A stretch of 64,000 bases of DNA, from the NCBI RefSeq assembly GCF_008831285.2, contig NC_045149.1, forward strand, positions 1,428,001 through 1,492,000, read 5' to 3'. The stretch's first letter is position 1. Each line of letters starts with the position of its first letter. The translations under genes and the position numbers were made by a program. Positions 5,697 through 58,324 of the stretch are shown piece by piece. This DNA is from Nymphaea colorata (taxonomy: Eukaryota; Streptophyta; Magnoliopsida; Nymphaeales; Nymphaeaceae). The notes beneath the pieces were generated by a model that did not search any database, was not told the origin of the DNA, and saw only the letters and a list, made by a program, of their open reading frames with translations.

Positions 5697-8195
5697 AAGA
5701 AGGAAAATAAATTACCTGAAACTGGCACACAAAGTCTGGTTGGGTCTAGTTTGAGAGCTAATGCAGCCCAAACCAAGACTTAGATCAAGATTCTCTTAAA
5801 AAAACTTGTTTTGAACTTGACCCCTTTTTTGAGTACCTAGTTGGAATTTTACCAACTTTTTGGGCTTCTCAAGGAATAGATCAAAGTACGTGTTGATAAG
5901 GGGGTATGAGGCCATATTTATAGGAGATAGAAGGGGCAAATTCCCTTCAGATTTTCGATCTAGCACTAAATTTTTAGCATTCTCTCCCCTCTTCAACACT
6001 CCGAACCATAGGTTAAAAGTTGGATTGACATTGAGTGTGGAAAATGAACTAAGCAATAATATGAAGAAGAGAAAACACACTTCTAAAGCTTATTTTAAAA
6101 CTTGAATAAATCAGAAAAATGTTTGTCCCAACCACATATAGTTATCGATTTCGATTCTATCTATGCAAGGGCATTCAACTAAAAATTCCACATGTTTCAA
6201 TGACATACATGCGAATGGACGTTAAGCATGGAGTGTGAAAATCATGATAAATTTTTGAGATATAATGTGCATTAAGCTCACATGTGGATCTTGAATCTAG
6301 ATTTGATGCTAAGATCTATATCTAAGTCCAGATCCAAAGAAAATTCTAGAAGGTGGATCCAGATGTGGTATTAAAATTTGAATTATGATTCAATATCCAA
6401 GATCTAAAAAGAAAGTGTTGGAACTAGATCTATGAAGATAGATCAGATCTGAGACTTGGATATGAGATGCAAACATAGAAATAAGACTTGGATACATAAT
6501 CTGAATAAAAAATATGAAAAATGAAAAAAATGAAAATAGCAAGAACCGAGACATGGATAGAGTAGCACTTGGTGGGTTCAAGCTGTATGACATGGGCAGG
6601 ACCTAGGTCATGTTCAGTTACTGAAAAAAGACTTTGTACAAACTCAGGCTGAGCGCAGGCTCAGCCTAAGTGCAGCCTTCGAAAAATTCAATTGTATGAG
6701 GAGGAATTGGGATAGGTTGAGCATAGGCTTAGACCTACTAGATACGTGGAACATTTATGAAAAACTAACATAAGTTCATGTAGCTCATAAGTTAGATTTA
6801 TGAAAAATACATGCATGGTGACAAATGACCAAAATACCAATGTGTATGATTGTGGGCTCAAATGTGTTTGAATAAAATGATGGGCTTCTACTAAGGATCT
6901 GGAATCAAAGAAAATCATTAACCAAGATCTATGTGACTTACACCCTATGTTTACGTAGAAAAATATGGCTAAAAAAGAAAATAACCTTTTGCCCCTAAAT
7001 AGAATCTGATTAAAATCTTGTTGGAAGATTCCAAATGAATTCTCTTGATCTGAATGTACCAACTTGCGTTTAGGTTCCTAAATAGGTTCTGGTTAAAATC
7101 TTACTAAAAAAATCTTCCTAGATAGCTCCAAAAATTAAAAATAAATTTTTACCAAGCCGTATACAACACATTTACAAAGTGAAATCAAGGAACACTATAA
7201 ATATCAGATTCTTATTGAAATTTTCATATATGCAGTTGAGGACACTTGGGAAAGCTACTTACCTATAAGGACATCTTGAAAGATCAAAGAAATTCACTAT
7301 AAGGACATGTTGAAAGATCAAAGAAATTCACTTTAATTTTGTAGTATTGAGCTCGACAACAATTTACAGAACGTAGCAACTACTAGGAATGAGTGAATGA
7401 ACTTAAACTAAACTAAAGGTGTATTAATTTACTCACGATAAACATAATCCCAACTCAATTTTGGCTCGCTCTATTAGGTTGAACTCAAATTCATCTCAAA
7501 CCCCTAAAAAATAGTAGAGAGAAAGCACTCAGAACTAAATTGAATTCAAACTGAGATGAATGAACAAACTAAACTAATGAAAACTTGATTTATATGTGAT
7601 AAACATGGCCCTAGCTCAGTTTTAGCTCAATATTCTAGGTTGAATTCAACTTCTGCTCAAACCTCTCGAAAATAGGAGAGAAAAGAGCTAGTAGAAATAT
7701 ATGCAAGTTAGTATATGATTAAAACTTGGGCTGAGTGGCTTAAAATCAGAAATGAAGCTTTTCTCCATTAAGGTAAACGTATTTTGACTTGGTTGAGCTA
7801 AACATCATCGTTTTAAGTTCTCTGAGCTGATCTAAGCTATAGGGAAGCTGCCTACAGACTAGAATGACTTTGATGAGCTAACTCTAGCGACTCTTGGGTT
7901 CGTGTAAAATGGAGAAATCACCTAATTGCTTAAATGTTAGGCAATTATTAGAAATGTTGGTGAAAATTCATATCTTTTGGGTGCAATGCCAGGATGTAGG
8001 GGCAAAAGAATAATTTTTATATTGGCCAACCTAGGTGATTTGGGTCTAGATGTTTAATGCTAGTGTAAAAAATGCTTGTTTGGCTCAAAAATGTCTCCTT
8101 GTCTATGAAATTTGATCATTTAAAATCTATTTGAAAATGTCATGGTTGAGGGTAAAATGGTCATTTGAACTTGTAAAAACTTTGAGTGTTCACAA
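5697..8195. repeat. Old direct repeat, unit U1 (about 2.5 kb)
   Basis: This segment matches a diverged second unit, U2, made of 9855-10612 continued at 23732-25435. Shared landmarks include 'aagtctggttgggtctag', 'ttggattgacattga' and 'aaataagacttggata'; both units end in 'tgagtg.tcaca'. Once the insert and one host copy are removed, the spacing is about 4.15 kb. U1 contains a 34-bp tandem pair (7263-7330) that U2 lacks, and a diverged tandem pair of roughly 160 bp (about 7390-7700). The U1/1.7-kb/U2 layout could be a degenerate long-LTR element. I found no primer-binding site, target duplication or coding domain, so it stays an unclassified repeat. Confidence 0.75.
7263..7330. repeat. 34-bp tandem pair
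   Basis: Two head-to-tail 34-bp units start 'ctataaggacat' at 7263 and 7297 and differ at one base. The same pair is present in duplication copy B (20382-20449). It is absent from the equivalent place in U2 (near 24520). Confidence 0.9.
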
Positions 8196-8574
8196 ATGCC
8201 CCTCTTTAATATTGAACTGGAAACTGTGCTTAGTACCAAAGAACGAACACCCATCTTGAGAATGACAATATTTTTGAAATGAAAATTTCAAAAATGAAAT
8301 CCATTTTGAAATTAAAAAAAGTGCCCCAGTGTGAATAATGATGTGATGCTTGTGAAAATGCATGATTATGCTTGTGAAATATATGCAGTGGAGTACTTGT
8401 TTGCATTGTGCACCAGAGTGTGAAAATCTCACATAAAATGTAAGTGCTTGTGAAAATACTTGGAGTTCTCGTGCCATAGTGCGAGTGCTTGCATGCTTGT
8501 TTGTGAAATTGTGAAATGTTCTAAATTAAAATAGGAGATGTCACGAAGATACAAAATATTATATCATGTTAGAC

Positions 8575-8935
8575 AACTTCAAAATCCAAAATCTAAGATT
8601 TGAAATTGTGGTTCAATATCCACGATTTAATATTTGAGATCCAAAATCCAAGACACAAAATCCATAATCTAGTTTCTGAAATTTGATATCCAAATCTGGA
8701 ATCATAAATCCAAAATCCAAGATCTAAAATCCAAAATCCAGAATATAAGGTTCAAGTTGCAAAAGTCCAAATATCCATGATCTGAAGTTAATGATTCGAG
8801 ACTCATATGCGAAATCTGATTTTAAAACCAAAGTTTAAAATCTGAAATCTAAAATCTAAGATGTGACATCCATATTCCAAGATCCAAAATCTAATTCTTG
8901 GTATCCAAAATCCAATACTGGACATCCAAATCTAG
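8575..8935. repeat. Degenerate short-period array (ATCCAAAATC-type)
   Basis: A long run of variants of 'gatccaaaatccaag' and 'atctaaaatcc' with no fixed period. It reads as a decayed minisatellite. The same array lies at 21694-22054 in copy B. Confidence 0.75.
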
Positions 8936-9854
8936 GTAGGTAGACTTGGGTTAATGTCATGGTTTATATCAAGATAAAGTTTATGATATGAATTCAATTC
9001 TTGGAATTGAAATTCAACATCCAAATGGGCTAGGGAGAAGCTGGTCAAAGTGACTAGGTTCAGTCTTACCTACACTAGGTTTGAACATACTTGGTATGGA
9101 TTTGACTGTAAATGTGTTCGGTCTTAGTCAAATCATGTGATATAAGATAGATATCATTCATTTCATATGAAAGAGTGTTTAAAGATGTTTGACTAGACCT
9201 AGGCTATGGGTCTGGGTTGATAAGAAATAGGCTCTAAGACCATTCTATGCTAAGCCTTAGAGAGGTGTGCTAGGTTTGGACTCCATACATGCATGGTTTA
9301 GGGTTTTTAAAATCATTTAAAGAAGTTGATTTCCAAATATGTTTTGGAAAACTATGATTTTGAAATGGTTTTGCATGAGGACCAAACTAGATACAGGTTT
9401 TCACATACCTAGGCTAATGCACAGATGGTATGCCATTAGGTTGACTCAGTTTGATTTCAAACAAGAGATGCATGTGGGTGCAAGGTGACTTAGTGTAAAT
9501 TAAAACATAAGTGCAACGGATGATTAAAACAAGCATGAAAGAAAATTGTATTATATATGCATGCTTTAAGCAAAACTAAGTAAACAAAAGCAAAGAATTT
9601 AAAAGAAATAGACAGGGAAGAGAGGGGCATACCTGACCCCTATGTCTACCCTAAAGACATTAAAATAGATATAATCTAGAAAATAAACATGCTAAATTTA
9701 ACAAGAAATAGAATAGAACTAAACATGTTATATAGAAAAAGAAAGCTAAACACGCTACAAGGAAAAAGAAAATTGAACTAGACATGTTGAAGGCAAAACT
9801 AAACTAAACATGCATAAGAAAAAGAACTAAACTGGTAATAAAAGAATAAAGAAG

Positions 9855-10612
9855 AGGGAAAAAGAAATTACTCGAACAGTGCCCTGGCTGAGCCCACTTG
9901 CATGACCCCCACATTAAGTCTGGTTGGGTCTAGATTGAGTGCTAATACAGCCCAAACCAAAACTTAGACGAAGGATTCTCTTAAAAATTTAACTTGTTTT
10001 GAGCTAGATTAACACTTTTGGTATTCTCTCTCATCTTCAACACCCTAAACCATAGGTTAAAAGTATATTTTCAATAGTATTTTGTTTGTTGTGAACTCAT
10101 CCGAACTTAGACTTTGATTCTGTAAAAAGCCTGTGTGCATGGAAAAGTGCTATTTGCTTCTTCATAAAGTATTTGGATTGACATTGAATGTGCAAAATGA
10201 ACAAAACAAAAACAAACAAAGGTGAAAACACACTTTTAAACCTTATTCTATAACTTGATATAAATAAATAACATGTTTGTCCCATCCACATACAAATATC
10301 GTTTTTGATTCTGTCTATGCCAGGGCACTCAATTAAGAATTTTACACATTTCAAATGGTTATGTGTGAATGGACATTAAGCATGGAGTGAGAAAATCATG
10401 ATACATTTTTGAGATATAATGTGCATTAAGCTTACATGTGGATCATGGATGTAGATTTGATACTAAGAGCCAAATCCAGGTCCAGATACAAAAGATTCTA
10501 GAAGATGGATCTAGATATGGTATTGAAATTTGGTTTATGATTCAATATCCAGGATGTAAAAGGAGAATGATGGATCTGATTTTCTAAAGATAGATCAGAT
10601 TTGAGACTTGGA
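9855..10612. repeat. Old repeat unit U2, left part
   Basis: This is the first part of the diverged second copy of 5697-8195, aligning from 'aagtctggttgggtctag' onward. It is cut at 10612 by the plasmid junction. The matching continuation is found only at 23732, after duplication copy B. A purine-rich run (about 9838-9870) sits at its start. Confidence 0.75.
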
Positions 10613-10964
10613 CATTTTCCGATAGATCCATAGTCTGATTTTGGCTTTTATCCATCTTGTACTCATTCAATAATTTAATAACTTGGATATTAAACCTGGA
10701 AGGATCTTCATTCTCTATGCATTTAGCTTCTATATCCCTGTATAAATCATCCCAAAACTCATTAATGATAGTCTGACTAGAATATCTTACAATTCCATAC
10801 CTCATATTCGACAACTTTAATATAGTATCTCTTAAATTTTGCCTTTTACGAGCTAAGGCATTGCCCTTACGATCGGTGATGATAATCATGATAGGATCCG
10901 TTTCGGGAACGTTGGATAAATTCAGAAAGAATATTGATGAGGAAAGAAAAAATAAATACCTCAT
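10613..10964 (-). pseudogene. Truncated RNA polymerase gene start (first 117 codons)
   Basis: The inverted copy of the first 117 codons of the RNA polymerase at 11661. It differs from the full copy at two residues (Ala for Thr and Arg for His near residues 35-38). After codon 117 the frame runs into host DNA at 10612 and stops nine codons later, near 10584. None of the polymerase motifs is included, so it cannot encode a working enzyme. It is a by-product of the head-to-head plasmid-end structure. Confidence 0.93.
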
Positions 10965-11293
10965 GATTATCTACGAAATTTGATATCAAGGTCTTTTGTT
11001 GAGTACATGTTATAAACACATATGAAGGGACAGTCAAGGAGCGGGGGGCCCCATCTCCTTCAATCAATGAGTAAGTGAGTAAAAGTTATAAACAAAATGA
11101 CAAATGGAGCGAGGGGCCCCATCTTTGGAGCGAGGGGCCCTATTAATGAGGATGATTGATAGTTAGTAATTACCATAATCCTAACTCTATCTCAAAACAC
11201 TCCTTCAATCAATGAGTAAGTTAGTACAAGTTATAAACAAAATTACCAATGGAGCGAGGGGCCCCATCGACAATTTCCAGAATCCTAACTCTC
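10613..11293 (-). repeat. Left arm of 681-bp head-to-head inverted repeat
   Basis: This is the reverse complement of 11332-12012 with no indels; position x pairs with 22625 minus x. There are six differences, all transitions. It contains a truncated start of the RNA polymerase gene plus its leader. The outer edge at 10613 is the exact junction with host DNA. The 38-bp spacer (11294-11331) is not symmetrical. Confidence 0.97.
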
Positions 11294-11331
11294 TTTTGAG
11301 GCCTAATACTGAGCTTCCCCCCTCCTGAGCC

Positions 11332-12012
11332 GAGAGTTAGGATTCTGGAAATTGTCGATGGGGCCCCTCGCTCCATTGGTAATTTTGTTTATAACTTGTA
11401 CTAACTTACTCATTGATTGAAGGAGTGTTTTGAGATAGAGTTAGGATTATGGTAATTACTAACTATCAATCATCCTCATTAATAGGGCCCCTCGCTCCAG
11501 AGATGGGGCCCCTCACTCCATTTGTCATTTTGTTTATAACTTTTACTCACTTACTCATTGATTGAAGGAGATGGGGCCCCCCGCTCCTTGACTGTCCCTT
11601 CATATGTGTTTATAACATGTACTCAACAAAAGACCTTGATATCAAATTTCGTAGATAATCATGAGGTATTTATTTTTTCTTTCCTCATCAATATTCTTTC
11701 TGAATTTATCCAACGTTCCCGAAACGGATCCTATCATGATTATCATCACCGATCGTAAGGGCAACACCTTAGCCCATAAAAGGCAAAATTTAAGAGATAC
11801 TATATTAAAGTTGTCGAATATGAGGTATGGAATTGTAAGATATTCTAGTCAGACTATCATTAATGAGTTTTGGGATGATTTATACAGGGATATAGAAGCT
11901 AAATGCATAGAGAATGAAGATCCTTCCAGGTTTAATATCCAAGTTATTAAATTATTGAATGAGTACAAGATGGATAAAAGCCAAAATCAGACTATGGATC
12001 TATCGGAAAATG
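11332..12012 (+). repeat. Right arm of 681-bp inverted repeat (plasmid end and start of RNA polymerase)
   Basis: The partner of 10613-11293. It covers the leader of the RNA polymerase gene and its first 117 codons. The centre of symmetry near 11312 most likely marks a former plasmid end. The duplicate may have arisen by fold-back copying or by end-to-end joining of two plasmid molecules. Confidence 0.95.
11357..11660 (+). promoter_or_regulatory. Repeat-bearing leader of the RNA polymerase gene
   Basis: A segment of about 70 bp beginning 'gatggggcccctc.ctcca' and ending 'ctcattgattgaaggag' occurs at 11357-11427 and again at 11502-11570. A third start, 'gatggggcccc', lies at 11570. GGGGCCCC or GGGCCCC cores occur near 11360, 11485, 11504 and 11573. 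The phrase 'tgtttataac' recurs near 11388, 11530 and 11608, the last about 50 bases before the start codon. This would suit promoter or origin elements near a plasmid terminus, but no experimentally known consensus is matched. Confidence 0.4.
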
Positions 12013-14618
12013 AATTATATGAGTTACAGAAGAGGATTGAAGATATAACTAGTAATTTCGATGAATATAGTATATTTAAGGAGACTCCAAACTTAATCAA
12101 CCTATTAGTAGGAAAGGATCTTATAAGCGCTAAATATTATTTATATAAATACCTACCTCAAGATATTTATAATAGTAATATAGATCAGTTTGGTCAATAT
12201 ATGCTGGAGGCTATCATTATATATGTCCTAGGGGTGTTGTACAACTGTATTCAAGAGTCCTCGGTTGTGAGGGTATCTACATTGGTGGACCGGCTAGATA
12301 GCACAGTTCGAACACAGGCTAATATAATCAATAAGAAAAACATGGTTAGTAGTACAGCAACAAATAGTCGAGTTGATAGTAGTAAGGAAGGTGATATCAA
12401 GCATAAAAAAAAAAATGAAATAGGTCAAAGATTGTTCGAGTTCATGATTGATAGAAAGTTGATCCATATTGAAACCTTTGCAGATGATGATAAGAAAGCT
12501 GTAGTGAAAAAGAAAGGAAATGGTTATTTAAAATCCAATTTATTCGCAGTATGTAATTTTAACTTAAGTCTAATCCCGTTGAAACTCAATCTTCCAATGG
12601 TTTGCAAGCCATTAAATTGGGAACACATATCGGAAAAATCATTTCATTTTGACTTTGAGATAAGGAAGCCTTTTCTGTTATCGGATATGATAGGCGGTTA
12701 CTTAAGCTGTCCTACCTTAGATATATATAATAGTTTTCGTCTGAATTCTTCCTTAAATAATAGTTTTCGTCTGAATTCTTCCTTAAATAATAGGTTTAGT
12801 CTGATATCATCCCGTAACCTTAGCAATTTTAATATTGAATTAGAAGATGATAGGTATAAGGAAATGTGCAACATATTGAATGGGCTTCAGAAACAAGGAT
12901 TTCAGATAAATCATCAAATATTTGAGTTCATTAAGAACAATTGTGCTACTTTAGAAAAAAGAGGTCTTCTTATGCCTGGAATACTAGCACACGTGAATCT
13001 GAAAGAAGCCTACGATCTTCTGAGGAGAAAATATTACCAGAATGAGGATATAAAGACAGTTTGTAGTCTGAGTGTTCTCTTAAAGGAATTAGCTAATAGG
13101 GTGCAGACTGCTAGGTATCAAGATTTAATAATCAGGCTAGTGTCCGCATACGAGGATTATGTATTTTATCTGCCTGCCTTTATGGACTTCCGTGGTAGAA
13201 TCTACCGCTCAGGTATTTTGCATTTTCATGAGCGTGATTTAGCTAGAAGTTTAATAGTATTTGCCAATAATCATCAAGAAGGAAGCAACCTGTCGGCTAA
13301 GGACACAGTAGCCTATTCAGCAGCCTTTAAGTATAAGAAATTCTATCTTTATGATGAAGCTCTTCAATGGTATAAGGAAAAACAGAGTTTGATCTATGCT
13401 TCTGATGATAGTTTAATAAGCTTCGCAAAGGGCGCTAGTGATCCATTTCAGTTCATAGCCAAGGTCCTGTGTGACGATAGAGTTCAAGAATCTAATAGCA
13501 TACCAATAACTCAAGATGCTGTTGCCAGTGCTTATCAGATCATGAGTTATTTATTGCTTAACGAAGAAATGGCTAGGAGAACGAATCTGATTCCCCACCC
13601 TGATGGGAAAATACAAGATGTATACATGTACTTGCTATATGATTTTAAGGAATTTTTGCATCATCGAATAAATAATAAGTTACAGATGGAAATCATTGAA
13701 TCTAAGTTAGATAGAAAGCTCATCAAAAGTCTATTCATGCCATTGATCTATGGGAAGACATTTATCAGCATGGAAAAGGATATTAGGCAAAAATATGGTG
13801 AATTGCTTAGTCGAAAGGATAGCTATAACCTCGCTATACTGAGCAATGAATTTTGGATCCATAAATATCCAGATATAGTCAATATTATGAAGTTGATTAC
13901 CATCATTAGTTGGTTTTGTTCAGTAATGGATAAAGCGGTTGTCTACAGTATACCATATTTCACTACAAAACAGGATTATATGTCTTTCGTCAAAGAAAGG
14001 ATAATGGTTTATGAAAGGACTAGCAAAAAGAGACGACAGGTTACTCTAAGTGTACCTACTATGAATAGGGATAAGCGAAAGACTCAATCCTCAGCATGCG
14101 CTAACTTTATTCATCAGAAGGATGCATACATTGCCATTCAAGTCGTAGAATCATTATTGAGAGAAGGAGCCCCTATATATACCGTACATGATAATTTTAT
14201 AACTACTCCGCCTTACGTCAGAATTGTACCTGATATATATACCAAGGTCTTTATTAATATGGGTCCTCCACTTAAAATTATTAATGAATTTATTAGGATC
14301 AATCTGATTACATCATACATTCGAGATAGTCATAACTCATCACCCTTATACTATAACCATAATTATCCTATGCCATCTGATTATCTTATTGAGATATTGA
14401 ATTCACTTTTACCTGATAATTCATCAACTAAAGATAAAATCAAATGGAAGAAAAAGGTATCAGAATTTGTTCAGTATTACAACAACTATGTAGATGCTGT
14501 ATGCAGTAATCAAGTGATTGATTCAGAGGATCTTTCTCCTTTCCTTATTCAAGAGAAGTGGAATCAATTTAAGAAACTTCTAGAGAACAGAAGTCATAAT
14601 TACAGCGTGCATTACTAA
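11661..14618 (+). CDS. rpo: Phage-type (single-subunit) DNA-directed RNA polymerase, linear-plasmid family
   Basis: The 985-residue frame is uninterrupted. Known family landmarks are in order: DFRGR (residues 509-513), motif A with catalytic Asp619 in QDAVASAYQ, motif B with Lys689 and Tyr697-Gly698 in KSLFMPLIYGK, the NFIHQKDA segment before the end, and motif C with His843-Asp844 in VHDNF. These match T7-like and mitochondrial RNA polymerases, and the DAxASAYQ form of motif A resembles what I recall of plasmid-encoded members. Length fits the family. It would transcribe plasmid genes in mitochondria. The first ATG is used; residues 1-18 are unusually hydrophobic, so Met26 (11736) is a possible alternative. 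The downstream gene starts 106 bp later on the same strand. A 30-bp duplication lies inside. Whether anything expresses it in the nucleus is unknown. Confidence 0.93.
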   Translation: MRYLFFLSSSIFFLNLSNVPETDPIMIIITDRKGNTLAHKRQNLRDTILKLSNMRYGIVRYSSQTIINEFWDDLYRDIEAKCIENEDPSRFNIQVIKLLNEYKMDKSQNQTMDLSENELYELQKRIEDITSNFDEYSIFKETPNLINLLVGKDLISAKYYLYKYLPQDIYNSNIDQFGQYMLEAIIIYVLGVLYNCIQESSVVRVSTLVDRLDSTVRTQANIINKKNMVSSTATNSRVDSSKEGDIKHKKKNEIGQRLFEFMIDRKLIHIETFADDDKKAVVKKKGNGYLKSNLFAVCNFNLSLIPLKLNLPMVCKPLNWEHISEKSFHFDFEIRKPFLLSDMIGGYLSCPTLDIYNSFRLNSSLNNSFRLNSSLNNRFSLISSRNLSNFNIELEDDRYKEMCNILNGLQKQGFQINHQIFEFIKNNCATLEKRGLLMPGILAHVNLKEAYDLLRRKYYQNEDIKTVCSLSVLLKELANRVQTARYQDLIIRLVSAYEDYVFYLPAFMDFRGRIYRSGILHFHERDLARSLIVFANNHQEGSNLSAKDTVAYSAAFKYKKFYLYDEALQWYKEKQSLIYASDDSLISFAKGASDPFQFIAKVLCDDRVQESNSIPITQDAVASAYQIMSYLLLNEEMARRTNLIPHPDGKIQDVYMYLLYDFKEFLHHRINNKLQMEIIESKLDRKLIKSLFMPLIYGKTFISMEKDIRQKYGELLSRKDSYNLAILSNEFWIHKYPDIVNIMKLITIISWFCSVMDKAVVYSIPYFTTKQDYMSFVKERIMVYERTSKKRRQVTLSVPTMNRDKRKTQSSACANFIHQKDAYIAIQVVESLLREGAPIYTVHDNFITTPPYVRIVPDIYTKVFINMGPPLKIINEFIRINLITSYIRDSHNSSPLYYNHNYPMPSDYLIEILNSLLPDNSSTKDKIKWKKKVSEFVQYYNNYVDAVCSNQVIDSEDLSPFLIQEKWNQFKKLLENRSHNYSVHY
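12731..12790 (+). repeat. 30-bp in-frame tandem duplication in the RNA polymerase gene
   Basis: Two identical 30-bp units start 'tagttttcgtctg' at 12731 and 12761. Because 30 is a multiple of three, the frame is kept and the protein repeats NSFRLNSSLN. It lies upstream of the conserved polymerase motifs, in a region likely to tolerate length change. Confidence 0.97.
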
Positions 14619-14724
14619 TTATGTAGATAATTATGTGAGGAGAAGCTATGGAAATAGCAGATAGGTAGGACTACTTAAGTAACTTAGTGCAAGGAGTATA
14701 TGAAATGAAATTCAAACTAAATGG

Positions 14725-15609
14725 ATGAAAAAACGACTCATGACTACCGGTCCTATGGAATTGGAGTTCTTTTTTGATGTAATGGAGCTTAACTATAAAC
14801 TGAATAATATTGAATATCCCAGGATTTCTAGTGTTGATATCAAATGTTTTAAAAATCGAATGATCAGTAACAATGATATTGAAAATGATATGCTATATGA
14901 TCCTATAATGGAACCATTGATTCAATCGTCGTTGGCACACTTCCTTTACATGAAAAAGAAGAATATGGATATGGATGACGAAAATAGGGAACAAACCCCA
15001 GATATCAAGAAATTCCATCCTAATTACATACGTTTTCAATTTCTGGATAACTTAATAGCAAATAAAGCATCAATCACACTAGGATCCTTTAAGCATTATG
15101 AATTGACACCAGATACATCATATATGGACAGAGGGAGACTGATGCAAAAAGTTGATGCTTTGTTACAGAATCCAATTCTAAAAAGATTGGTTGATTCCTT
15201 TATCAATAAACTACAGGTCAATGGTGATCAGGTTGATAGAATCTTAGGATTCGTTCAAACTCAAAGGAAACCAACTAAAGGTATAGGCTTGCTATATTTT
15301 GTACTGATGGACTTGTATTTAGAGCATCTTGATCATTTCATTTATGATACTATAAATCAATCTGGATTAAACTGTTTTTGGGCTAGGTGCCTGAATACCG
15401 CAATCCTTGGATTTACTGATGAGAAAACTGTATTCAAATTGAATGAGATTTTGCAGTTACACATCGTACTTCCAGCATGGGGTTTGGTTGCTAAAGTACG
15501 TTCAGGCACCAGGGGTGGTACAGTTCTTAGACCTTGGCAAGGTAAACTCTATATTAATATGGAGGGGCATCTACAATGGGAAAGACCTGAAAGTATCATA
15601 GAGATGTAA
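14725..15609 (+). CDS. Unknown linear-plasmid protein, 294 residues
   Basis: An intact frame lies 106 bp after the RNA polymerase on the same strand, ending 136 bp before the convergent DNA polymerase stop. I recognise no domain. The protein is rich in Asp, Asn, Lys and Ile in its first half. It has a hydrophobic segment around residues 184-205 (GLLYFVLMDLYLEHL) and a C-terminal part with several Trp and Gly residues (RSGTRGGTVLRPWQGKLY). There is no clear signal peptide, zinc-binding Cys/His cluster or nuclease motif. Its position in a plasmid expression unit suggests a role in plasmid upkeep, such as a DNA-binding or end-associated protein, but that is only inference. The start ATG at 14725 is the first in frame; the second in-frame Met is residue 6. 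Confidence 0.75.
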   Translation: MKKRLMTTGPMELEFFFDVMELNYKLNNIEYPRISSVDIKCFKNRMISNNDIENDMLYDPIMEPLIQSSLAHFLYMKKKNMDMDDENREQTPDIKKFHPNYIRFQFLDNLIANKASITLGSFKHYELTPDTSYMDRGRLMQKVDALLQNPILKRLVDSFINKLQVNGDQVDRILGFVQTQRKPTKGIGLLYFVLMDLYLEHLDHFIYDTINQSGLNCFWARCLNTAILGFTDEKTVFKLNEILQLHIVLPAWGLVAKVRSGTRGGTVLRPWQGKLYINMEGHLQWERPESIIEM

Positions 15610-15745
15610 TGATCACTCAGGTCTATGAGAGTGTTTATGATTTGTCAGGTTCTCTTGTGTCTGAGAATATAGTATGGTGTTAAAATGGACCGGTCTGACG
15701 GATGAACCGGAGAGTAGGGAGGTATGGAAGGGCCCACTCAAGTTC
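15610..15745. other. Convergent intergenic spacer of the plasmid
   Basis: This 136-bp gap separates the stop codons of the unknown protein (+) and the DNA polymerase (-). It has a GC-richer patch near 15688-15712 with repeated CCGG words that could form a weak hairpin. A shared termination site would be expected here, but no clear terminator is visible. Confidence 0.4.
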
Positions 15746-18601
15746 TTATTCATTTGGTTTTGGTCTATAGGGTGAGCTATTTTCATTGTCCTTCTTAGCC
15801 TTAGCCTTCTTAGCCTGACCTTTGGTTTTGTAGAGAGTTGGTTGAATAGTAGTGGTCTTTTGACCTTCAATAGTGGACTTACTGACTGATTCTTCATTTT
15901 TCTTCAAGAGTTCATATTGTAAAATAGTATTAGCATCTGGACTTCCTATGTCTATTACATCTATAGGTCGTGTGTCTATCCAGACATGATTGGAATCATA
16001 GACATTCTGTCTTTTATGACTATGTGGTAGTCGTAGTTTGATGAGAATCTCTTTTTTTCCAATCAGGAGTTTGTTCCAGTTGATTCTAAAATTAGCTACA
16101 GTGGGGATCTGACCCGTTAGAGATAGATCTGCTAATTGCTTTTTAAACCATTCAGATGTGACTAAATCTTTAGCTGGACCTTTGTGTTTAATAATTTGTC
16201 TATCATCTTCTATGTCTAACATATAACTTTTAGGTGCTAAGAAGATTCCTCTCTTGACATGGTCTTCGAGTTTAAACTTACCCAATTCAATGGAAGAGAT
16301 CAAATCGTCAGGAAGAGGACTTCCTAGAACTATTGAGTCAGTATCAGTATAGTAATAGTCAGGTCTGGAAATGTATGGGTACATATGAATACGAGCACAT
16401 GCAGTGATAGCAGCAGCCAATTGAACAGCCGACATCTTAGGAGCTTTCCATTCATCGTCGTCAGCAAAGCTACTATTGCTACTGTAATTGACCATATAAT
16501 AATGATCGGTCAGCTTCTCTGCAGATTTAAAATTATCCTTCCTCATCAATTCTTCATATTTCTTTTGATTGCAGATCTCTGTTACTGTACTTTCAGGATT
16601 CATACCAAATCTACCATATATGGAATTCATTAGAATCTTATAAATGTATGTCATAGCTTCATCACCAGCTTTCTTGGCTTCTAGTCTGCTTTCATAAAGG
16701 TTTGAGATGAAGCCTTCAAAAGGACTTGACTTCTTCTCAAACAAATAACCCCTCAGAGGAATGACATGGTAACCTAAATCGCGTGCAAACTTCAACTCTT
16801 CGCTATAAAAGACTCCAATGAATTTACCTGTAGGAAAGAGTAAAGTACCATATTTATCCTTATAGGGCAAGAATGGACGTGATATCTTAGTAGGACATAC
16901 TACATAGGCCTCAATAAAGCCAAACAAGCTATCCAATCCAACGCGCTCCAAATTATTCTTCTAGACAGGTATACCACAAGGCATAGGATAGGATTTCATA
17001 ATATGAGGATATAATGAGTTCACATCATAATAGTAAAGATTCTCACCATAGGGCTTATAGACATCAACATGACCCCCATAATAGCCACGCCTAATAAATG
17101 TGTCTTGGTTTCTTGTAGGTATATTAATATGAAAGGTCTCATCATCAAAATAATTCTTACGAAAGATTTTCAAGGCAAGCGATGATATTGTCATCACATC
17201 CTCGACATCAATACTGTATTTAGACCAATTAATCTCTTGAGCCTTCAACATCACACCACCTAAGATCAGGATATCTTGGCGAAGATATTTGATCAAATCC
17301 ACACTATTCAACAGAAGATTAGACACAGACAAATCCGCATGTGGGATAGAACCTTTGGATCCTAATTCAGGGCATAATGTCTTTCCCAATGTTTCCAGAG
17401 AGCTAGGCAGTAATGTGCAAGAATCTCTGAAACGAAATAATAACTTATCGCCAAGATAAACTTTCAACTCATAAAGTTTATGATTCCTCAACAATGTTTT
17501 GATTTTATACTTATTACCACGATCAACATAATACCTCTTACTGAAAATGCCATCAAATCGGGCAAAATTATGGAAATATACTGTTCGAAGACGAAAACCA
17601 CTATTTTTTTTCACATATTCTTCCAAAGTGAATAAAAACTCAAATAACATTTTTTCAGTCCTCTCTTCAAAGGTAGGATAAGCATTAATGTGGTTTTCAC
17701 TGAAAAAGGTTTGAATAGAATAGGAAGGTAGGGATGTTAGATCATCACCTGGCTTAACCACTAAGAAACCTGCAGCATAAGGAACATGAACATAATTCAA
17801 GACTATAGTCTCTAGATCGGCTACAATGAAAGGACGACATTCTTTTTGATGACCTTTGATAGCGCTGATTTTAGAGGGAATACGAGTTTGTTTATACATC
17901 AGTGATAGGACTTCGGGTAGATTACCACTGACGATTTCAGAATCCATAACATTTCTGATTCTTCCAAGAAGATTTGATATCTTAGGAAAGTCTAATGATT
18001 GACTGGAATCCTTAGATTCATAATAGATACGAATAAAGACACCTTTAATCACAGCATCATGATATTTCTCACCATTTAACCTAACAAATTGTTCAATCAT
18101 ATCATATATCCTCTTTTTGTGAAGTCTATTACCTACAGGATCACACAATGGAATAGCATGACCTAAAGTCAAGGATATATCATAGGATGCTGGTAATTGC
18201 ATAGTATATCCAATTGTAAATTTCACATACTCAGAATCAATATTGTAAGCGTACTGTTCGACCAACTGTATGAAGGCTAATGTTATAACTTCAAAATCAT
18301 TAGTTCGAGGGTATGGCTCTACAAAACTCATAGAAGCATAGATAGATCCAGGATAAAGAAGTGTAAATCGAACATAATCTGTAATACTTTGCAAACTTTG
18401 CCAAGAACTATATAAAGCATAATTGGTGAAATCAGAATAAAACCTCTTCTTGGTGAAATCAGAATAAAACCTCTTCTTGGTGAAATCAGAATCAAACCTC
18501 TGATTGGTGAAATCAGAATCAAACCTCTTAGTCACATATGACCTTTCATAAAACATAATACTAGACGCACGATTAAATAACATCATACTCACGCTCTCCA
18601 A
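15746..18601 (-). pseudogene. dpo: Family-B (protein-primed type) DNA polymerase, broken by one in-frame TAG
   Basis: The frame runs 951 codons with a single stop, TAG at 16963-16961 (codon 547). Before the stop: exonuclease motifs ExoI Asp262-x-Glu264, ExoII Asn345...Phe349-Asp350 and ExoIII Tyr439...Asp443, then YYGG (507-510) and polymerase motif A with Asp526 in DVNSLYP. After it: motif B KxxxNSIYG (Lys at codon 655), motif C YTDTDS (Asp codons 753 and 755) and a KxGPAK-type segment. This is the protein-primed organellar/plasmid/phage subclass. The roughly 255 residues before ExoI may include the terminal-protein region, as proposed for related plasmids. The C-terminus is Lys-rich. The stop falls between motifs A and B, so any product ending there lacks the catalytic core. 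Readthrough, or a recent mutation such as C to T, could explain it. Confidence 0.93.
18423..18530 (-). repeat. Four 27-bp in-frame tandem repeats in the DNA polymerase N-terminus
   Basis: Units begin 'ttggtgaaatcagaat' at 18423, 18450, 18477 and 18504. They encode four nine-residue blocks of the form (K/Q)RF(D/Y)SDFT(N/K) at about residues 25-60. Two units carry Asp and two Tyr in the variable place. The array keeps frame and lies well before the exonuclease motifs, so copy number could vary among plasmid copies. Confidence 0.97.
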
Positions 18602-18995
18602 TCAATGTGGCCTGGAACTGATCTAGCACCTCCTCCTCTTCCTATTCTTTATCGGTCCTCTTCCCCGTATTCTCGGCGGGTTCTGAACTTCATGGTACCG
18701 GGTCTCTACTACCCGGGTCTCTACTACTCTACTACTCTACTACTCTATTATTTAGTCTACTACTCTATTATTTAGTCTATTCCCCTAAAAGGGGGTATGA
18801 TATACAGGGTGGGTCTCTACTACTCTACTACTCTACTACTCTATTATTTAGTCTACTACTCTATTATTTAGTCTATTCCCCTAAAAGGGGGTAGGGGTTT
18901 TGGGGTGGGTCTCTACTACTCTACTACTCTACTACTCTATTATTTATTCTACTACTCTATTATTTAGTCTATTCCCCTAAAAGGGGGTAGTGGTT
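18602..18995. repeat. DNA-polymerase-side plasmid end with 96-bp tandem repeats
   Basis: Three units start 'gggtctctactactctac' at 18715, 18811 and 18907. The first two are 96 bp; the third is cut after about 89 bases by the host junction at 18995/18996. Each unit has internal 'tactactctattatttagt' subrepeats and a CCCCTAAAAGGGG hairpin core. A partial 'ccgggtctctactac' lies just before, at 18698-18714. The segment 18602-18700 forms the leader of the DNA polymerase. The array may be part of the plasmid's terminal or promoter region. It does not visibly match the leader at 11332. Confidence 0.93.
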
Positions 18996-21900
18996 TAGAT
19001 CAAAGTATGTGTTGATAAGGGGGTATGAGGCCATATTTATAGGAGATAGAAGGGGCAAATTCCCTTCAGATTTTCGATCTAGCACTAAATTTTTAGCATT
19101 CTTTCCCCTCTTCAACACTCCGAACCATAGGTTAAAAGTTGGATTGACATTGAGTGTGGAAAATGAACTAAGCAATAATATGAAGAAGAGAAAACACACT
19201 TCTAAAGCTTATTTTAAAACTTGAATAAATCAGAAAAATGTTTGTCCCAACCACATATAGTTATCGATTTCGATTCTATCTATGCAAGGGCATTCAACTA
19301 AAAATTCCACATGTTTCAATGACATACATGCGAATGGACGTTAAGCATGGAGTGTGAAAATCATGATAAATTTTTGAGATATAATGTGCATTAAGCTCAC
19401 ATGTGGATCTTGAATCTAGATTTGATGCTAAGATCTATATCTAAGTCCAGATCCAAAGAAAATTCTAGAAGGTGGATCCAGATGTGGTATTAAAATTTGA
19501 ATTATGATTCAATATCCAAGATCTAAAAAGAAAGTGTTGGAACTAGATCTATGAAGATAGATCAGATCTGAGACTTGGATATGAGATGCAAACATAGAAA
19601 TAAGACTTGGATACATAATCTGAATAAAAAATATGAAAAATGAAAAAAATGAAAATAGCAAGAACCGAGACATGGATAGAGTAGCACTTGGTGGGTTCAA
19701 GCTGTATGACATGGGCAGGACCTAGGTCATGTTCAGTTACTGAAAAAAGACTTTGTACAAACTCAGGCTGAGCGCAGGCTCAGCCTAAGTGCAGCCTTCG
19801 AAAAATTCAATTGTATGAGGAGGAATTGGGATAGGTTGAGCATAGGCTTAGACCTACTAGATACGTGGAACATTTATGAAAAACTAACATAAGTTCATGT
19901 AGCTCATAAGTTAGATTTATGAAAAATACATGCATGGTGACAAATGACCAAAATACCAATGTGTATGATTGTGGGCTCAAATGTGTTTGAATAAAATGAT
20001 GGGCTTCTACTAAGGATCTGGAATCAAAGAAAATCATTAACCAAGATCTATGTGACTTACACCCTATGTTTACGTAGAAAAATATGGCTAAAAAAGAAAA
20101 TAACCTTTTGCCCCTAAATAGAATCTGATTAAAATCTTGTTGGAAGATTCCAAATGAATTCTCTTGATCTCAATGTACCAACTTGCGTTTAGGTTCCTAA
20201 ATAGGTTCTGGTTAAAATCTTACTAAAAAAATCTTCCTAGATAGCTCCAAAAATTAAAAATAAATTTTTACCAAGCCGTATACAACACGTTTACAAAGTG
20301 AAATCAAGGAACACTATAAATATCAGATTCTTATTGAAATTTTCATATATGCAGTTGAGGACACTTGGGAAAGCTACTTACCTATAAGGACATCTTGAAA
20401 GATCAAAGAAATTCACTATAAGGACATGTTGAAAGATCAAAGAAATTCACTTTAATTTTGTAGTATTGAGCTCGACAACAATTTACAGAACGTAGCAACT
20501 ACTAGGAATGAGTGAATGAACTTAAACTAAACTAAAGGTGTATTAATTTACTCACGATAAACATAATCCCAACTCAATTTTGGCTCGCTCTATTAGGTTG
20601 AACTCAAATTCATCTCAAACCCCTAAAAAATAGTAGAGAGAAAGCACTCAGAACTAAATTGAATTCAAACTGAGATGAATGAACAAACTAAACTAATGAA
20701 AACTTGATTTATATGTGATAAACATGGCCCTAGCTCAGTTTTAGCTCAATATTCTAGGTTGAATTCAACTTCTGCTCAAACCTCTCGAAAATAGGAGAGA
20801 AAAGAGCTAGTAGAAATATATGCAAGTTAGTATATGATTAAAACTTGGGCTGAGTGGCTTAAAATCAGAAATGAAGCTTTTCTCCATTAAGGTAAACGTA
20901 TTTTGACTTGGTTGAGCTAAACATCATCGTTTTAAGTTCTCTGAGCTGATCTAAGCTATAGGGAAGCTGCCTACAGACTAGAATGACTTTGATGAGCTAA
21001 CTCTAGCGACTCTTGGGTTCGTGTAAAATGGAGAAATCACCTAATTGCTTAAATGTTAGGCAATTATTAGAAATGTTGGTGAAAATTCATATCTTTTGGG
21101 TGCAATGCCTGGATGTAGGGGCAAAAGAATAATTTTTATATTGGCCAACCTAGGTGATTTGGGTCTAGATGTTTAATGCTAGTGTAAAAAATGCTTGTTT
21201 GGCTCAAAAATGTCTCCTTGTCTATGAAATTTGATCATTTAAAATCTATTTGAAAATGTCATGGTTGAGGGTAAAATGGCCATTTGAACTTGTAAAAACT
21301 TTGAGTGTTCACAAATGCCCCTCTTTAATATTGAACTGGAAACTGTGCTTAGTACCAAAGAACGAACACCCATCTTGAGAATGACAATATTTTTGAAATG
21401 AAAATTTCAAAAATGAAATCCATTTTGAAATTAAAAAAAGTGCCCCAGTGTGAATAATGATGTGATGCTTGTGAAAATGCATGATTATGCTTGTGAAATA
21501 TATGCAGTGGAGTACTTGTTTGCATTGTGCACCAGAGTGTGAAAATCTCACATAAAATGTAAGTGCTTGTGAAAATACTTGGAGTTCTCGTGCCATAGTG
21601 CGAGTGCTTGCATGCTTGTTTGTGAAATTGTGAAATGTTCTAAATTAAAATAGGAGATGTCACGAAGATACAAAATATTATATCATGTTAGACAACTTCA
21701 AAATCCAAAATCTAAGATTTGAAATTGTGGTTCAATATCCACGATTTAATATTTGAGATCCAAAATCCAAGACACAAAATCCATAATCTAGTTTCTGAAA
21801 TCTGATATCCAAATCTGGAATCATAAATCCAAAATCCAAGATCTAAAATCCAAAATCCAGAATATAAGGTTCAAGTTGCAAAAGTCCAAATATCCATGAT

Positions 21901-23731
21901 CTGAAGTTTATGGTTCGAGACTCATATGCGAAATCTGATTTTAAAACCAAAGTTTAAAATCTGAAATCTAAAATCTAAGATGTGACATCCATATTCCAAG
22001 ATCCAAAATCTAATTCTTGGTATCCAAAATCCAATACTGGACATCCAAATCTAGGTAGGTAGACTTGGGTTAATGTCATGGTTTATATCAAGATAAAGTT
22101 TATGATATGAATTCAATTCTTGGAATTGAAATTCAACATCCAAATGGGCTAGGGAGAAGCTGGTCAAAGTGACTAGGTTCAGTCTTACCTACACTAGGTT
22201 TGAACATACTTGGTATGGATTTGACTGTAAATGTGTTCGGTCTGAGTCAAATCATGTGATATAAGATAGATATCATTCATTTCATATGAAAGAGTGTTTA
22301 AAGATGTTTGACTAGACCTAGGCTATGGGTCTGGGTTGATAAGAAATAGGCTCTAAGACCATTCTATGCTAAGCCTTAGAGAGGTGTGCTAGGTTTGGAC
22401 TCCATACATGCATGGCTTAGGGTTTTTAAAATCATTTAAAGAAGTTGATTTCCAAATATGTTTTGGAAAACTATGATTTTGAAATGGTTTTGCATGAGGA
22501 CCAAACTAGATACAGGTTTTCACATACCTAGGCTAATGCACAGATGGTATGCCATTAGGTTGACTCAGTTTGATTTCAAACAAGAGATGCATGTGGGTGC
22601 AAGGTGACTTAGTGTAAATTAAAACATAAGTGCAACGGATGATTAAAACAAGCATGAAAGAAAATTGTATTATATATGCATTCTTTAAGCAAAACTAAGT
22701 AAACAAAAGCAAAGAATTTAAAAGAAATAGACAGGGAAGAGAGGGGCATACCTGACCCCTATGTCTACCCTAAAGACATTAAAATAGATATAATCTAGAA
22801 AATAAACATGCTAAATTTAACAAGAAATAGAATAGAACTAAACATGTTATATAGAAAAAGAAAGCTAAACACGCTACAAGGAAAAAGAAAATTGAACTAG
22901 ACATGTTGAAGGCAAAACTAAACTAAACATGCATAAGAAAAAGAACTAAACTGGTAATAAAAAAATAAAGAAGAGGGAAAAGGAAATTACTCGAACAGTG
23001 CCCTGGCTGAGCCCACTCCCATGACCCCCACATTAAGTCTGGTTGGGTCTAGATTGAGTTCTAATACAGCCCAAACCAAAACTTAGACGAAGGATTCTCT
23101 TAAAAATTTAACTTGTTTTGAGCTAGATTAACACTTTTGGTATTCTCTCTCATCTTCAACACCCTAAACCATAGGTTAAAAGTATATTTTCAATCGTATT
23201 TTGTTTGTTGTGAACTCATCCAAACTTAGACTTTGATTCTGTAAAAAGCCTGTGTGCATGGAAAAGTGCTATTTGCTTCTTCATAAAGTATTTGGATTGA
23301 CATTGAATGTGCAAAATGAACAAAACAAAAACAAACAAAGGTGAAAACACACTTTTAAACCTTATTCTATAACTTGATATAAATAAATAACATGTTTGTC
23401 CCATCCACATACAAATATCGTTTTTGATTCTGTCTATGCCAGGGCACTCAATTAAGAATTTCACACATTTCAAATGGTTATGTGTGAATGGACATTAAGC
23501 ATGGAGTGAGAAAATCATGATACATTTTTGAGATATAATGTGCATTAAGCTTACATGTGGATCATGGATGTAGATTTGATACTAAGAGCCAAATCCAGGT
23601 CCAGATACAAAAAATTCTAGAAGATGGATCTAGATATGGTATTGAAATTTGGTTTATGATTCAATATCCAGGATGTAAAAGGAGAATGATGGATCTGATT
23701 TTCTAAAGATAGATCAGATTTGAGACTTGGA
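18996..23731. repeat. Right copy (B) of 4,736-bp direct duplication flanking the plasmid insert
   Basis: A near-identical copy of 5877-10612 at an offset of 13,119. It begins right after the truncated third 96-bp plasmid repeat and ends at 'gagacttgga', where old unit U2 continues without a break at 23732. This shows that copy B keeps the original right flank while copy A keeps the original left flank. It contains the same 34-bp tandem and short-period array as copy A, and no gene is recognised. Confidence 0.95.
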
Positions 23732-25435
23732 TTTGAGATGCAGACATAGAAATAAGACTTGGATATATAGTCTGGATAAAATGTATGAAATGGAGATATG
23801 AAAATAGCAAGGGCCAGGACCAAACTCAAGCTGCGGTAGGTGGGTTCAAGATCTATGACATGGGCAGGACTTGGGTCAAGTTCTGTTACTGAAAAAAGAC
23901 TAGGTTTAGGCCTAGGCTGGGTGAAAGCTCAGCTAAGGTGCTGTCTTTAGAAAATTCAGTTTTGATGAGGAATTGGGATAGGCTGAGCTTGGGCCCAGGC
24001 TTACTAGATCCATGAAATGTTTATGAAAAACTAACTTAAGTTCATGTAACCCTTAAGTTAGGTCTATGAAAAATATGTACATGATAGCAAATGACCTACC
24101 ATTGTGTGTGATTGTGTGATGAAACAGGTTCAAATAAATACATGGGCTTGAACTAAGGATCTGGAATCAAAGAAAATCATAAACCAAGGTCTATGTGACC
24201 TATACCCAATGTTTATGCAAAAAATATGCTTAAAAAGGAAATGACCACATTGCCCCACTGTGTACATTCAATGTTTAGAATGAATTCTCTCAATTCGACT
24301 AAACCAACGTATTGCCAGGTTCCTAAATAGGCTATGGTTTAAATTCGTGCTGAAAAATTCCACCTGGATTGCAATGAAAATCATAAACAAATTTTTACGA
24401 AGCTGTATGTGGCACATTTGTAAAGATAAATCAAGGAAGGCCATAAAAATTAGATTTTTATTGGAATTTTCATAGGTGGAGCTGTGGGCATTTGGGAAAG
24501 CTATTTACCTGTAAAGATATTGAATGATCAGAGAAATTCACTTTAATTTTACAAAATTTGACAACAGTTTGTACTGTAGCGAGTACCAGAAATGAGCTCT
24601 ATGGCCTTTATAATTGAATTGAACTCAAACAGGAAGTAATGAACTCAAATCAAAATAAGGGAGTATAGATTTACTCATGATAAATATAATCCTAACTCGA
24701 TTTCAGCTCACTCTATCAGGTTGATCTCAAATTCAACTGAAACCGCTACAAACTAGATAGACAAAGCACTCGAAACAAAATTGAACTCAAAATAAGATCA
24801 ATGAGTTCAAAATGAACTAATGAACACTTGATTTATACATGATAAACATGATCCTAGCTCAGTTTTAGCTCAATCTTTCAGGTTGAACTAAAATTCAGTT
24901 CAAACTCCTAAAACAGGAGACAGAAAGACAAGTAGAAATATGCAAGTTAGTATATGACTGAAACTTGGGTTGGGTGACTCAAAATCTGTGCAATAAAACT
25001 TTCTCTTCATTAAGGCAAACTTGTTTGACTTGGTTGAGCTAAACATCACAGTTTTAAGTTCCTAGAGTTGATATGAGTTACATGGGAGCTAGTTTTAACT
25101 GGAATGGCTTTGGTGAGCTAACTCTAGTGACTCCTATGTTTATATACAGAGAAATCACCTAATTGCTGAAATGGGCAATTTTCAGAAATTTTGGTGAAAA
25201 TCCCTACTTTTTGTGTGCAATGGTCAAATAAAGGAGCAAAAGGGTCATTTTTAGTTTGACCAACCTAGGTGATCTACGTCTAGGTGTTCAATGCTGGTGT
25301 GAAAAGTGCTTTTTTGGCTCAAAATGGCCCCTTGTTCTTGAAATTTGGTCATTGAAAATCTATTCGGACATCTCATGGTGAAGGGTAAAATGGTCATTTG
25401 GACTTACAAAAAATTTGAGTGCTCACAATAATTCT
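23732..25435. repeat. Old repeat unit U2, right part
   Basis: A diverged match to 6461-8195, starting at 'ttgagatgcagacatag' and ending 'tttgagtgctcaca'. Divergence includes many substitutions and small indels, so it is far older than the A/B duplication. No coding frame of note. Confidence 0.75.
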
Positions 25436-58127: not shown

Positions 58128-58324
58128 TCCATCTCAAAAGAGGGAGCAGGAGAGGACAACGAAATCTAAAGACCTAAATAGTCCATAGGCAGGCCAGCAG
58201 CCATACACCCAAAGCAAGCTTCTGCAAGAAGTACCATGGCCGGATCCGCATAGATGAGGTAAAGATGACACTTAGAAGAATTAATAGAAAGACCTGAGAT
58301 GAACTCAAAAACCCGAATGATGAG

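Follow-up and report, generated by a model that had tools for sequence, protein, structure and literature searches.

Probable capture of a mitochondrial linear plasmid between the copies of a nuclear tandem duplication in Nymphaea colorata

How a block of plasmid-type genes came to lie, largely open, between nuclear repeats is the question raised by a locus on chromosome contig C12 of Nymphaea colorata. The insert, which occupies positions 10613-18995 of the window (the whole 64,000-nt stretch of DNA that was analysed), carries genes for an RNA polymerase, orf294 and a family-B DNA polymerase. The original prediction held that this is an almost intact mitochondrial linear plasmid, with two frames of 985 and 294 codons free of stops and a DNA polymerase interrupted by one; the frames and Pfam matches confirmed this gene content.

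Coding content of the insert

The longest stop-to-stop frame elsewhere in the window spans only 236 aa, so the frames of the insert cannot be attributed to chance. The RNA polymerase matches Pfam RNA_pol (PF00940, E=3.8e-22) and a PHROG RNA polymerase (3e-47), aligns with mitochondrial RNA polymerase chains, and retains the motifs MDFRGR (aa 508), RKLIKSLFMPLIYGKT (aa 685) and VHDNF (aa 842). Both halves of the DNA polymerase match DNA_pol_B_2 (PF03175) in Pfam, with E=4.7e-51 and 1.7e-40. Its in-frame stop, the codon at 16961-16963, falls between the motifs DVNSLYP and KILMNSIYGR, and the aligned codons are not stops in either of the two other copies that cover this site (on C1 and C4). Catalytic residues are recognisable in both polymerases, as had been proposed. 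The product of orf294 had no match in Pfam and NCBIfam profile searches and a weak PHROG match (E=0.017), and its AlphaFold structure model (pLDDT 34) was not usable. Neither the RNA polymerase nor orf294 had a relative among viral contigs, nor did the RNA polymerase have one in a bacterial plasmid set. Applied to the genes, the term "almost intact" is fair, but a stop breaks the DNA polymerase between two of its catalytic motifs, and on the DNApol side the insert halts inside a repeat, with no matching terminal repeat.

Table 1. Features of the C12 locus, in window coordinates.
Feature	Position	Strand	Description
Host segment A, left copy	5877-10612	+	4,736-b direct duplication; self-BLAST and alignment
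Left palindrome arm	10613-11293	-	Inverted copy of plasmid 11332-12012, 681 b; joined to host at 10612/10613
Asymmetric spacer at palindrome centre	11294-11331	.	38 b; putative hairpin loop of plasmid end
Plasmid terminal/leader region	11332-11660	+	Upstream of RNA polymerase; GC-rich repeats
RNA polymerase	11661-14618	+	985 aa, ATG start, no internal stop; phage/mitochondrial-type, single-subunit
orf294	14725-15609	+	294 aa, no internal stop; protein of unknown kind
DNA polymerase	18601-15746	-	Family B, organellar/viral type; 546 aa open, one stop, then 404 aa open
27-b in-frame tandem repeats	18396-18556	-	Near N-terminus of DNA polymerase
Three ~96-b tandem repeats	18715-18995	.	DNApol-side plasmid end; third reaches host junction
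Host segment A', right copy	18996-23731	+	Same 4,736-b segment as 5877-10612

Mitochondrial origin of the plasmid

Plasmid coding DNA was found at twelve other nuclear loci. On C4, where the copy is scrambled and adjoins a COX1 NUMT, the plasmid concatemer turns, 10 b on, into mtDNA 98% identical to C782:98279-99006, and on C1 the copy is flanked on both sides by pieces of a mitochondrial high-copy repeat. These fusions and borders support the original view that the nucleus captured a linear plasmid from mitochondria. A search for a free plasmid, using insert DNA and proteins against 783 contigs, gave no coding match on any small contig, and only a 92-b match was found between the mitogenome and the plasmid; both results count against the explanation preferred below. 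The Nymphaea mitogenome paper (PMC6092842) reports zero horizontal transfer events, and plasmids go unmentioned in its available text.

The mutation spectrum of the plasmid was compared with that of nuclear DNA. A:T<->C:G transversions make up 107 of the 175 differences between the C12 and C4 copies and 21 of the 49 between C12 and C1, whereas the corresponding count for seven nuclear duplications within the window is 88 of 530 (P=5e-28 and 6e-5, respectively). Polarised plasmid branches, with 2 ambiguous sites left out, showed 10 A:T>C:G changes versus 2 G:C>T:A, and on the mitochondrial chromosome A:T>C:G accounted for 8 of 11 changes, these polarised counts being small, with a one-sided P of about 0.02 each. 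Since the transversion excess, the polarised branches and the mitochondrial chromosome agree, the plasmid had a mitochondrial spectrum before transfer; together with the C4 fusion and the C1 repeats, this indicates an organelle origin of the kind seen in NUMTs. After transfer, C>T-type changes account for 10 of 14 in the C4 NUMT. The NUMT comparison used 20 loci taken from the matches listed, one of them (L041) without an alignment; a second NUMT was present at 1,427 of the 3,075 C4-aligned sites, and sites at which other NUMTs disagreed were left out of the mitochondrial and C4 counts. Two spectra in one sequence, A:T>C:G before transfer and C>T-type after it, therefore separate the mitochondrial and nuclear lives of this DNA. 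The A:T>C:G excess is not a general plant expectation, since transitions dominate the mitochondrial spectrum of Arabidopsis msh1 mutants, judging from the available text of PMC12225983.

Duplicated flanks, age and mode of capture

The ends originally given for the insert proved exact, the host repeat stopping at 10612 and resuming at 18996. The insert is flush between segments A and A' (in one assembly, without N in the window), and therefore marks a tandem-duplication breakpoint. Neither this duplication nor the palindromic left end of the insert had been noted in the original prediction. There is no microhomology at 10612/10613 and at most 1 b in common at 18995/18996, as expected of NUMT-like end joining without long homology. 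A and A' are 99.56% identical, differing by 21 substitutions (13 of them transitions) and 0 indels; the absence of indels beside 21 substitutions seems low for noncoding DNA and counts against the explanation preferred here.

Segment A includes a dispersed nuclear repeat family, arranged here in a ~4.15-kb tandem. This family gave at least 110 matches, self included, from 40 of 452 candidates scored. A search with 5700-7700 found, among the matches listed, no third copy near the A/A' identity, the next best reaching 76% over its length and 86% for a short piece. The earlier description of the locus as full of nuclear retrotransposons holds only in part: a LINE-type reverse transcriptase relic is present at 57.3-59.0 kb of the window, and the immediate flank consists of this dispersed family. 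A reading of segment A as a giant LTR was rejected, since its left edge at 5877 is off the starts of the family matches (about 5726 and 6020).

An assembly artefact is an improbable source of this arrangement. Two haplotype copies of A would have been joined through plasmid or chimeric sequence, making the duplication, and perhaps the insertion, false; the identity of A and A' is such as alleles might have, again with no indels, and duplication and junctions alike rest on a single assembly. Against this, the window is free of N, and both junctions are non-homologous, so that each would need a real or chimeric molecule. The transfer itself is not in doubt, because the twelve other nuclear loci hold plasmid coding DNA.

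The open frames had been ascribed to recent transfer or to selection keeping the genes open, and of these recent transfer stands. From flank divergence, unselected frames should have gained 0.35-1.17 stops among the three of them; the single stop observed requires no appeal to nuclear selection. Before transfer there were 0 stops versus 10.6 expected, C12-private changes having been removed first from the stop and synonymous counts, and selection keeping the frames open acted at that stage; it is visible in the mitochondrial phase only. Of the three groupings of changes that were tested, the pooled A:T<->C:G class alone gave an excess, with 19 synonymous changes versus 11.7 expected (P=0.019); all changes grouped gave P=0.19. 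Separate tests detected no purifying selection, with P(syn>=obs) of 0.88, 0.37, 0.69 and 0.86 in four DNA polymerase comparisons, 0.86 for the RNA polymerase and 0.19 for orf294. Domestication, in which nuclear selection holds the RNA polymerase and orf294 open, is very unlikely: two of three frames are open and catalytic motifs are kept, but the DNA polymerase is broken, its one stop accords with the number expected under no selection, synonymous changes are not in excess once the A:T<->C:G class is set aside (12 seen, 15.0 expected), and dN/dS between C12 and C1 is 1.14. The open genes seem to reflect the youth of the insertion rather than usefulness, and the capture seems to have occurred by chance.

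Least credible, and already disfavoured, is active insertion of a Polinton-type transposon with the flanking repeat as its target-site duplication: an organellar/viral family-B polymerase is encoded and direct repeats flank the insert, but the four frame pieces matched no integrase or transposase among Pfam, PHROGs and NCBIfam families and did not show the Polinton/Maverick gene set (an integrase, with a capsid or protease in many), the insert has no matching terminal repeats, the C4 copy is scrambled and fused to mtDNA, and we know of no precedent for a 4.7-kb target duplication.

The evidence strongly favours a different course of events, in which a mitochondrial linear plasmid of N. colorata, whose genes comprised an RNA polymerase, a family-B DNA polymerase and an unknown third, was trapped as filler DNA while a break on C12 was being repaired. 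What was captured would have been a molecule of the plasmid severed close to the DNApol-side end, and its RNAP-side end would have become a palindrome by unfolding or copying. Repair would have attached the right side of A to one end of the plasmid, and to its opposite end the left side of a further copy of A; the outcome would be a 4.7-kb tandem duplication whose breakpoint holds the plasmid. At a rate of 7 substitutions per kb per My for the flanking duplication, the insert would since have drifted neutrally, with no visible constraint, for roughly 0.2-0.5 My. In this way the nucleus would document a rapidly changing mitochondrial plasmid, with the duplication that flanks the insert supplying the date.

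Plasmid ends and comparison with known systems

The palindrome at the RNAP-side end has arms that differ at 6 positions, all transitions, and its left arm takes in the opening ~117 codons of the RNA polymerase. The arms have diverged by 0.88%, compared with 0.44% for the flanks (P=0.14), which counts against the capture explanation. A 34-b core of the spacer recurs with 1 error in a palindrome at C4:1.266 Mb, with 4 errors at C10:4.859 Mb and partially on C2, and this recurrence led to rejection of the spacer as filler DNA made at the C12 insertion. Missed-adapter palindromes are an artefact of long-read sequencing; such an origin is disfavoured by the 6 arm differences on C12 and 4 on C4 and by the recurring spacer. 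Circularisation, with the left plasmid end joined to the right, is disfavoured because each palindrome has one end present twice as its two arms. The half copies cease to match inside the spacer (C2) or some 10 b past it (C10), and the spacer in them faces opposite ways with respect to the arm. Palindromic or arm-bearing loci on C6, C16, C246, C329, C96, C7 and C5 have other centres or none; the C5 copy departs from the arm at the spacer edge and continues as a separate short inverted repeat.

No inverted repeat of at least 20 b (12-b seed) joining the left and right ends was found, so the insert does not represent a whole plasmid whose ends match. Repeats related to the ~96-b tandem units at its right end are present on C1 and C8. 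In the C8 copy, arm sequence of the C4 palindrome comes after the DNApol-side repeat; in that palindrome the terminal ~43 b of each arm, together with the central spacer, match the C12 RNAP-side end. This arrangement may be an indirect sign of a common terminal sequence at both ends of the source family. Although the family-B polymerase type of such plasmids is protein-primed, the source plasmid may, tentatively, have had hairpin-like telomeres, either covalently closed or self-priming, with a single short inverted repeat and its ~34-38-b loop present at both ends; the nuclear copies would then be unfolded hairpins. Of the features described here, the palindromic end carried by the plasmid, which may be a hairpin telomere, is the newest, and its recurrence means that the kind of telomere borne by a plant mitochondrial plasmid can be tested directly.

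Among pPolB-type linear plasmids are maize S1/S2 and the 11.6-kb plasmid of Brassica; the type is characterised by free molecules in mitochondria with protein attached at the 5' ends. Nuclear copies of such plant mitochondrial plasmids, occurring in land plants, have already been published (PMC10583447), and the earlier statement that nuclear traces are usually described as fragments is not supported; Nymphaea does not occur in the main text of that paper. As in the plasmids described there, the C12 copy combines a family-B organellar/viral DNA polymerase gene (PF03175 in both halves) with a single-subunit RNA polymerase gene (PF00940 and alignment), the latter usual but not universal in this type, and the C8/C4 arrangement hints at a terminal sequence common to both ends. 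Unlike them, the C12 copy lacks terminal inverted repeats at both ends, lies inside a flush 4.7-kb duplication, and has as its RNAP-side end a palindrome whose asymmetric spacer recurs elsewhere. NUMTs are described as organelle DNA captured at breaks, frequently as concatemers (PMC7037861), and the present loci resemble them in the 0-b and at most 1-b C12 junctions, in the scrambled C4 pieces joined to mtDNA, and in the prominence of C>T-type changes after transfer, as counted above in the C4 NUMT. They differ in that the C12 source is a plasmid missing from the mitogenome except for the 92-b match, and in that its capture coincides with a 4.7-kb host duplication. With the "clothespin" mitochondrial plasmids, such as Fusarium pFOXC (PMC3035579), the Nymphaea plasmid would share a terminal fold-back, if the proposed reading of the palindrome holds; the pFOXC type is described as replicating by reverse transcription, whereas the Nymphaea plasmid encodes a family-B DNA polymerase and has a putative hairpin end.

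Gene content and junctions of the insert

The window spans positions 1428001-1492000 of contig C12. The original prediction of an RNA polymerase, orf294 and a DNA polymerase with a single stop in the insert was borne out, as listed in the table. The motifs kept in the RNA polymerase, which we take to be catalytic, line up in alignment with those of the mitochondrial RNA polymerase. The stop in the DNA polymerase lies past DVNSLYP (aa 526) and ahead of KILMNSIYGR (aa 655) and YTDTDS (aa 751), all presumably polymerase motifs, and the product as read would therefore be without two of them. No stop occurs at the aligned codons of the C1 (10.82 Mb) and C4 (9.67 Mb) copies, the two others that cover this codon.

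Plasmid genes of the insert and nuclear loci carrying plasmid coding DNA (C, contig)
Feature	Location	Remark
RNA polymerase	in insert 10613-18995	985 aa
orf294	in insert 10613-18995	
Family-B DNA polymerase	in insert 10613-18995	one in-frame stop splits frame
Coding loci, C1	10.82 Mb, 10.08 Mb, 18.29 Mb	
Coding loci, C3	12.14 Mb, 3.97 Mb	
Coding loci, C4	9.67 Mb, 27.66 Mb	
Coding loci, C12	window insert, 9.42 Mb	
Coding loci, single per contig	C5:13.02 Mb, C7:19.47 Mb, C13:11.53 Mb, C14:1.17 Mb	

By alignment, host sequence 18996-23731 (A') repeats the 4,736 b of 5877-10612 (A), the two differing by 21 substitutions and by no indels, and both copies abut the insert exactly. The simplest ancestral arrangement is 5876, a single copy of A, then 23732. 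At the left junction plasmid and host have no bases in common, and at the right one they share 1 b at most. The arrangement matches end joining in which filler DNA is left at a tandem-duplication breakpoint.

A dispersed nuclear repeat family occupies 5726-10612 and 23029-25428 as tandem units of ~4.15 kb, about 78-82% alike. A relic of a LINE-type reverse transcriptase with zf-RVT (57272-59031, minus strand) lies within a GC-rich region (57-63 kb) of strong AT skew.

Reading frames and base changes before and after transfer

Given a plant nuclear rate of 7 substitutions per kb per My (PMC7037861), the 21 A/A' differences place the insertion at ~0.32 My (0.20-0.48 for 13-32 differences); the true age would be greater if A and A' underwent gene conversion. 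From the same divergence, the three frames are expected to gather 9-23 substitutions and 0.35-1.17 stops without selection, and one stop was observed. The open frames are thus no evidence of nuclear use, and the suggestion that they signal selection in the nucleus is not upheld.

The C12 and C4 copies show 152 differences in the 3,707 coding sites compared, and C4 has no stops versus 10.6 expected by random placement, an outcome reached in 0 of 4,000 simulations. Within the A:T<->C:G class, synonymous changes exceed expectation (19 vs 11.7, P=0.019), which is not so outside it (12 vs 15.0); all classes together give 31 vs 26.7 (P=0.19). Counting against selection are a dN/dS of 1.14 between the C12 and C1 copies and the detection of purifying selection in none of six separate comparisons. 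The evidence is most fairly read as frame maintenance in mitochondria with only weak constraint on amino-acid change, followed by none that is visible after transfer.

A:T<->C:G transversions are over-represented among differences between plasmid copies, at 107 of 175 between C12 and C4 (non-overlapping pieces) and 21 of 49 between C12 and C1. The seven nuclear duplications within the window, used for comparison, give 88 of 530 (Fisher, P=5e-28 and P=6e-5, respectively), and A/A' taken alone as the reference gives 4 of 21 (P=3e-4 for the plasmid excess). Taking C4 as the outgroup, the C12 and C1 branches together have 33 changes, among them 10 A:T>C:G, 2 G:C>T:A and 15 of C>T type. Changes on the mitochondrial chromosome, polarised with the C4 NUMT (nuclear mtDNA piece) and one or more others, are A:T>C:G in 8 of 11 cases; C>T-type changes account for 10/14 in the C4 NUMT and 57/133 in other NUMTs. 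These spectra indicate that the plasmid had the mitochondrial spectrum before transfer and the nuclear one after it, the numbers being small and the C4 outgroup imperfect. By contrast, the Arabidopsis msh1 spectrum is transition-rich, according to PMC12225983.

Other nuclear copies and the plasmid ends

Contig searches located plasmid coding DNA at 13 nuclear loci, the window included and a 34-b match on C10 left out; searching with plasmid end-region sequence reveals more. The second large copy (C1:10818076-10820773, L002) has a DNA polymerase frame open over 949 aa and is flanked on both sides by fragments of a repeat that abounds in C782, the mitogenome contig, which bears COX1. Single stops in the C4, C1:10.08 and C3:3.97 fragments fall at the last, last and fourth residues of the matches, at or beside fragment edges. 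At C4:9.67 Mb, a scrambled set of plasmid pieces is followed after 10 b by mtDNA (98% to C782:98279-99006), and this concatemer adjoins a COX1 NUMT. The NUMT (C4:9675890-9682581) carries COX1 in pieces and is interrupted at ~C4:9.677-9.682 Mb.

The insert has a single match to C782, a 92-b stretch lying upstream of the DNA polymerase (window 18614-18705, C782:532728-532819, 88-89%). A ~140-b repeat family occupies much of C782 (e.g. 1-2800 of locus L003); one nuclear copy gave 1590 matches, and among the matches listed nearly all are on C782. Repeats form nearly half of the mitogenome according to PMC6092842.

The left (RNAP-side) end of the insert consists of 681 b of plasmid and an inverted second copy of them, separated by a 38-b spacer, the arms differing at six sites, all transitions. 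A 1,506-b palindrome, L042 (C4:1265384-1266889), with 723-b arms that differ at four sites and lie 60 b apart, contains the 34-b core of this spacer at its centre with one error. Its similarity to C12 is confined to the final ~43 b of both arms plus one 34-b piece farther in, the remaining arm sequence being other and without polymerase. Since C8 joins the DNApol-side repeat to L042 arm sequence, L042 is suggested to represent the plasmid's other end. In half copies, similarity ends within the spacer on C2 and ~10 b past it on C10, with opposite spacer orientations relative to the arm. The RNAP-end palindrome of the C4:9.67 Mb concatemer has a different, 12-b spacer, and several further loci with arm sequence have other centres or none. 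A plasmid end formed by a hairpin, closed or self-primed, fits these structures; alternatively, they may derive from a plasmid-borne palindromic dimer. Filler made on the spot was rejected for the spacer because it would not recur, and joining of left to right end is disfavoured because it would not yield one end twice.

Large palindromes at C6:25035649-25036843, C16:933986-935165, C246:517-1932 and C329:682-2094 have arms of L042 arm sequence and centres unlike that of L042; these palindromes are much alike across the four contigs.

Relation to known insertions

Organelle DNA serves as filler with 1-7 b of microhomology or blunt ends, as stated in PMC7037861; within partial literature coverage, no description was found of a duplication as large as 4,736 b. 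A title search, likewise of partial coverage, found no report of a Nymphaea mitochondrial plasmid, and the word 'plasmid' is absent from the available text of the mitogenome paper (PMC6092842). Linear plasmids of plant mitochondria are already known to have nuclear copies (PMC10583447). On the basis of those published copies, and of the literature covered in part for Nymphaea, we rate nuclear plasmid insertion as known as such and the anatomy of the C12 insert as a variant of it.
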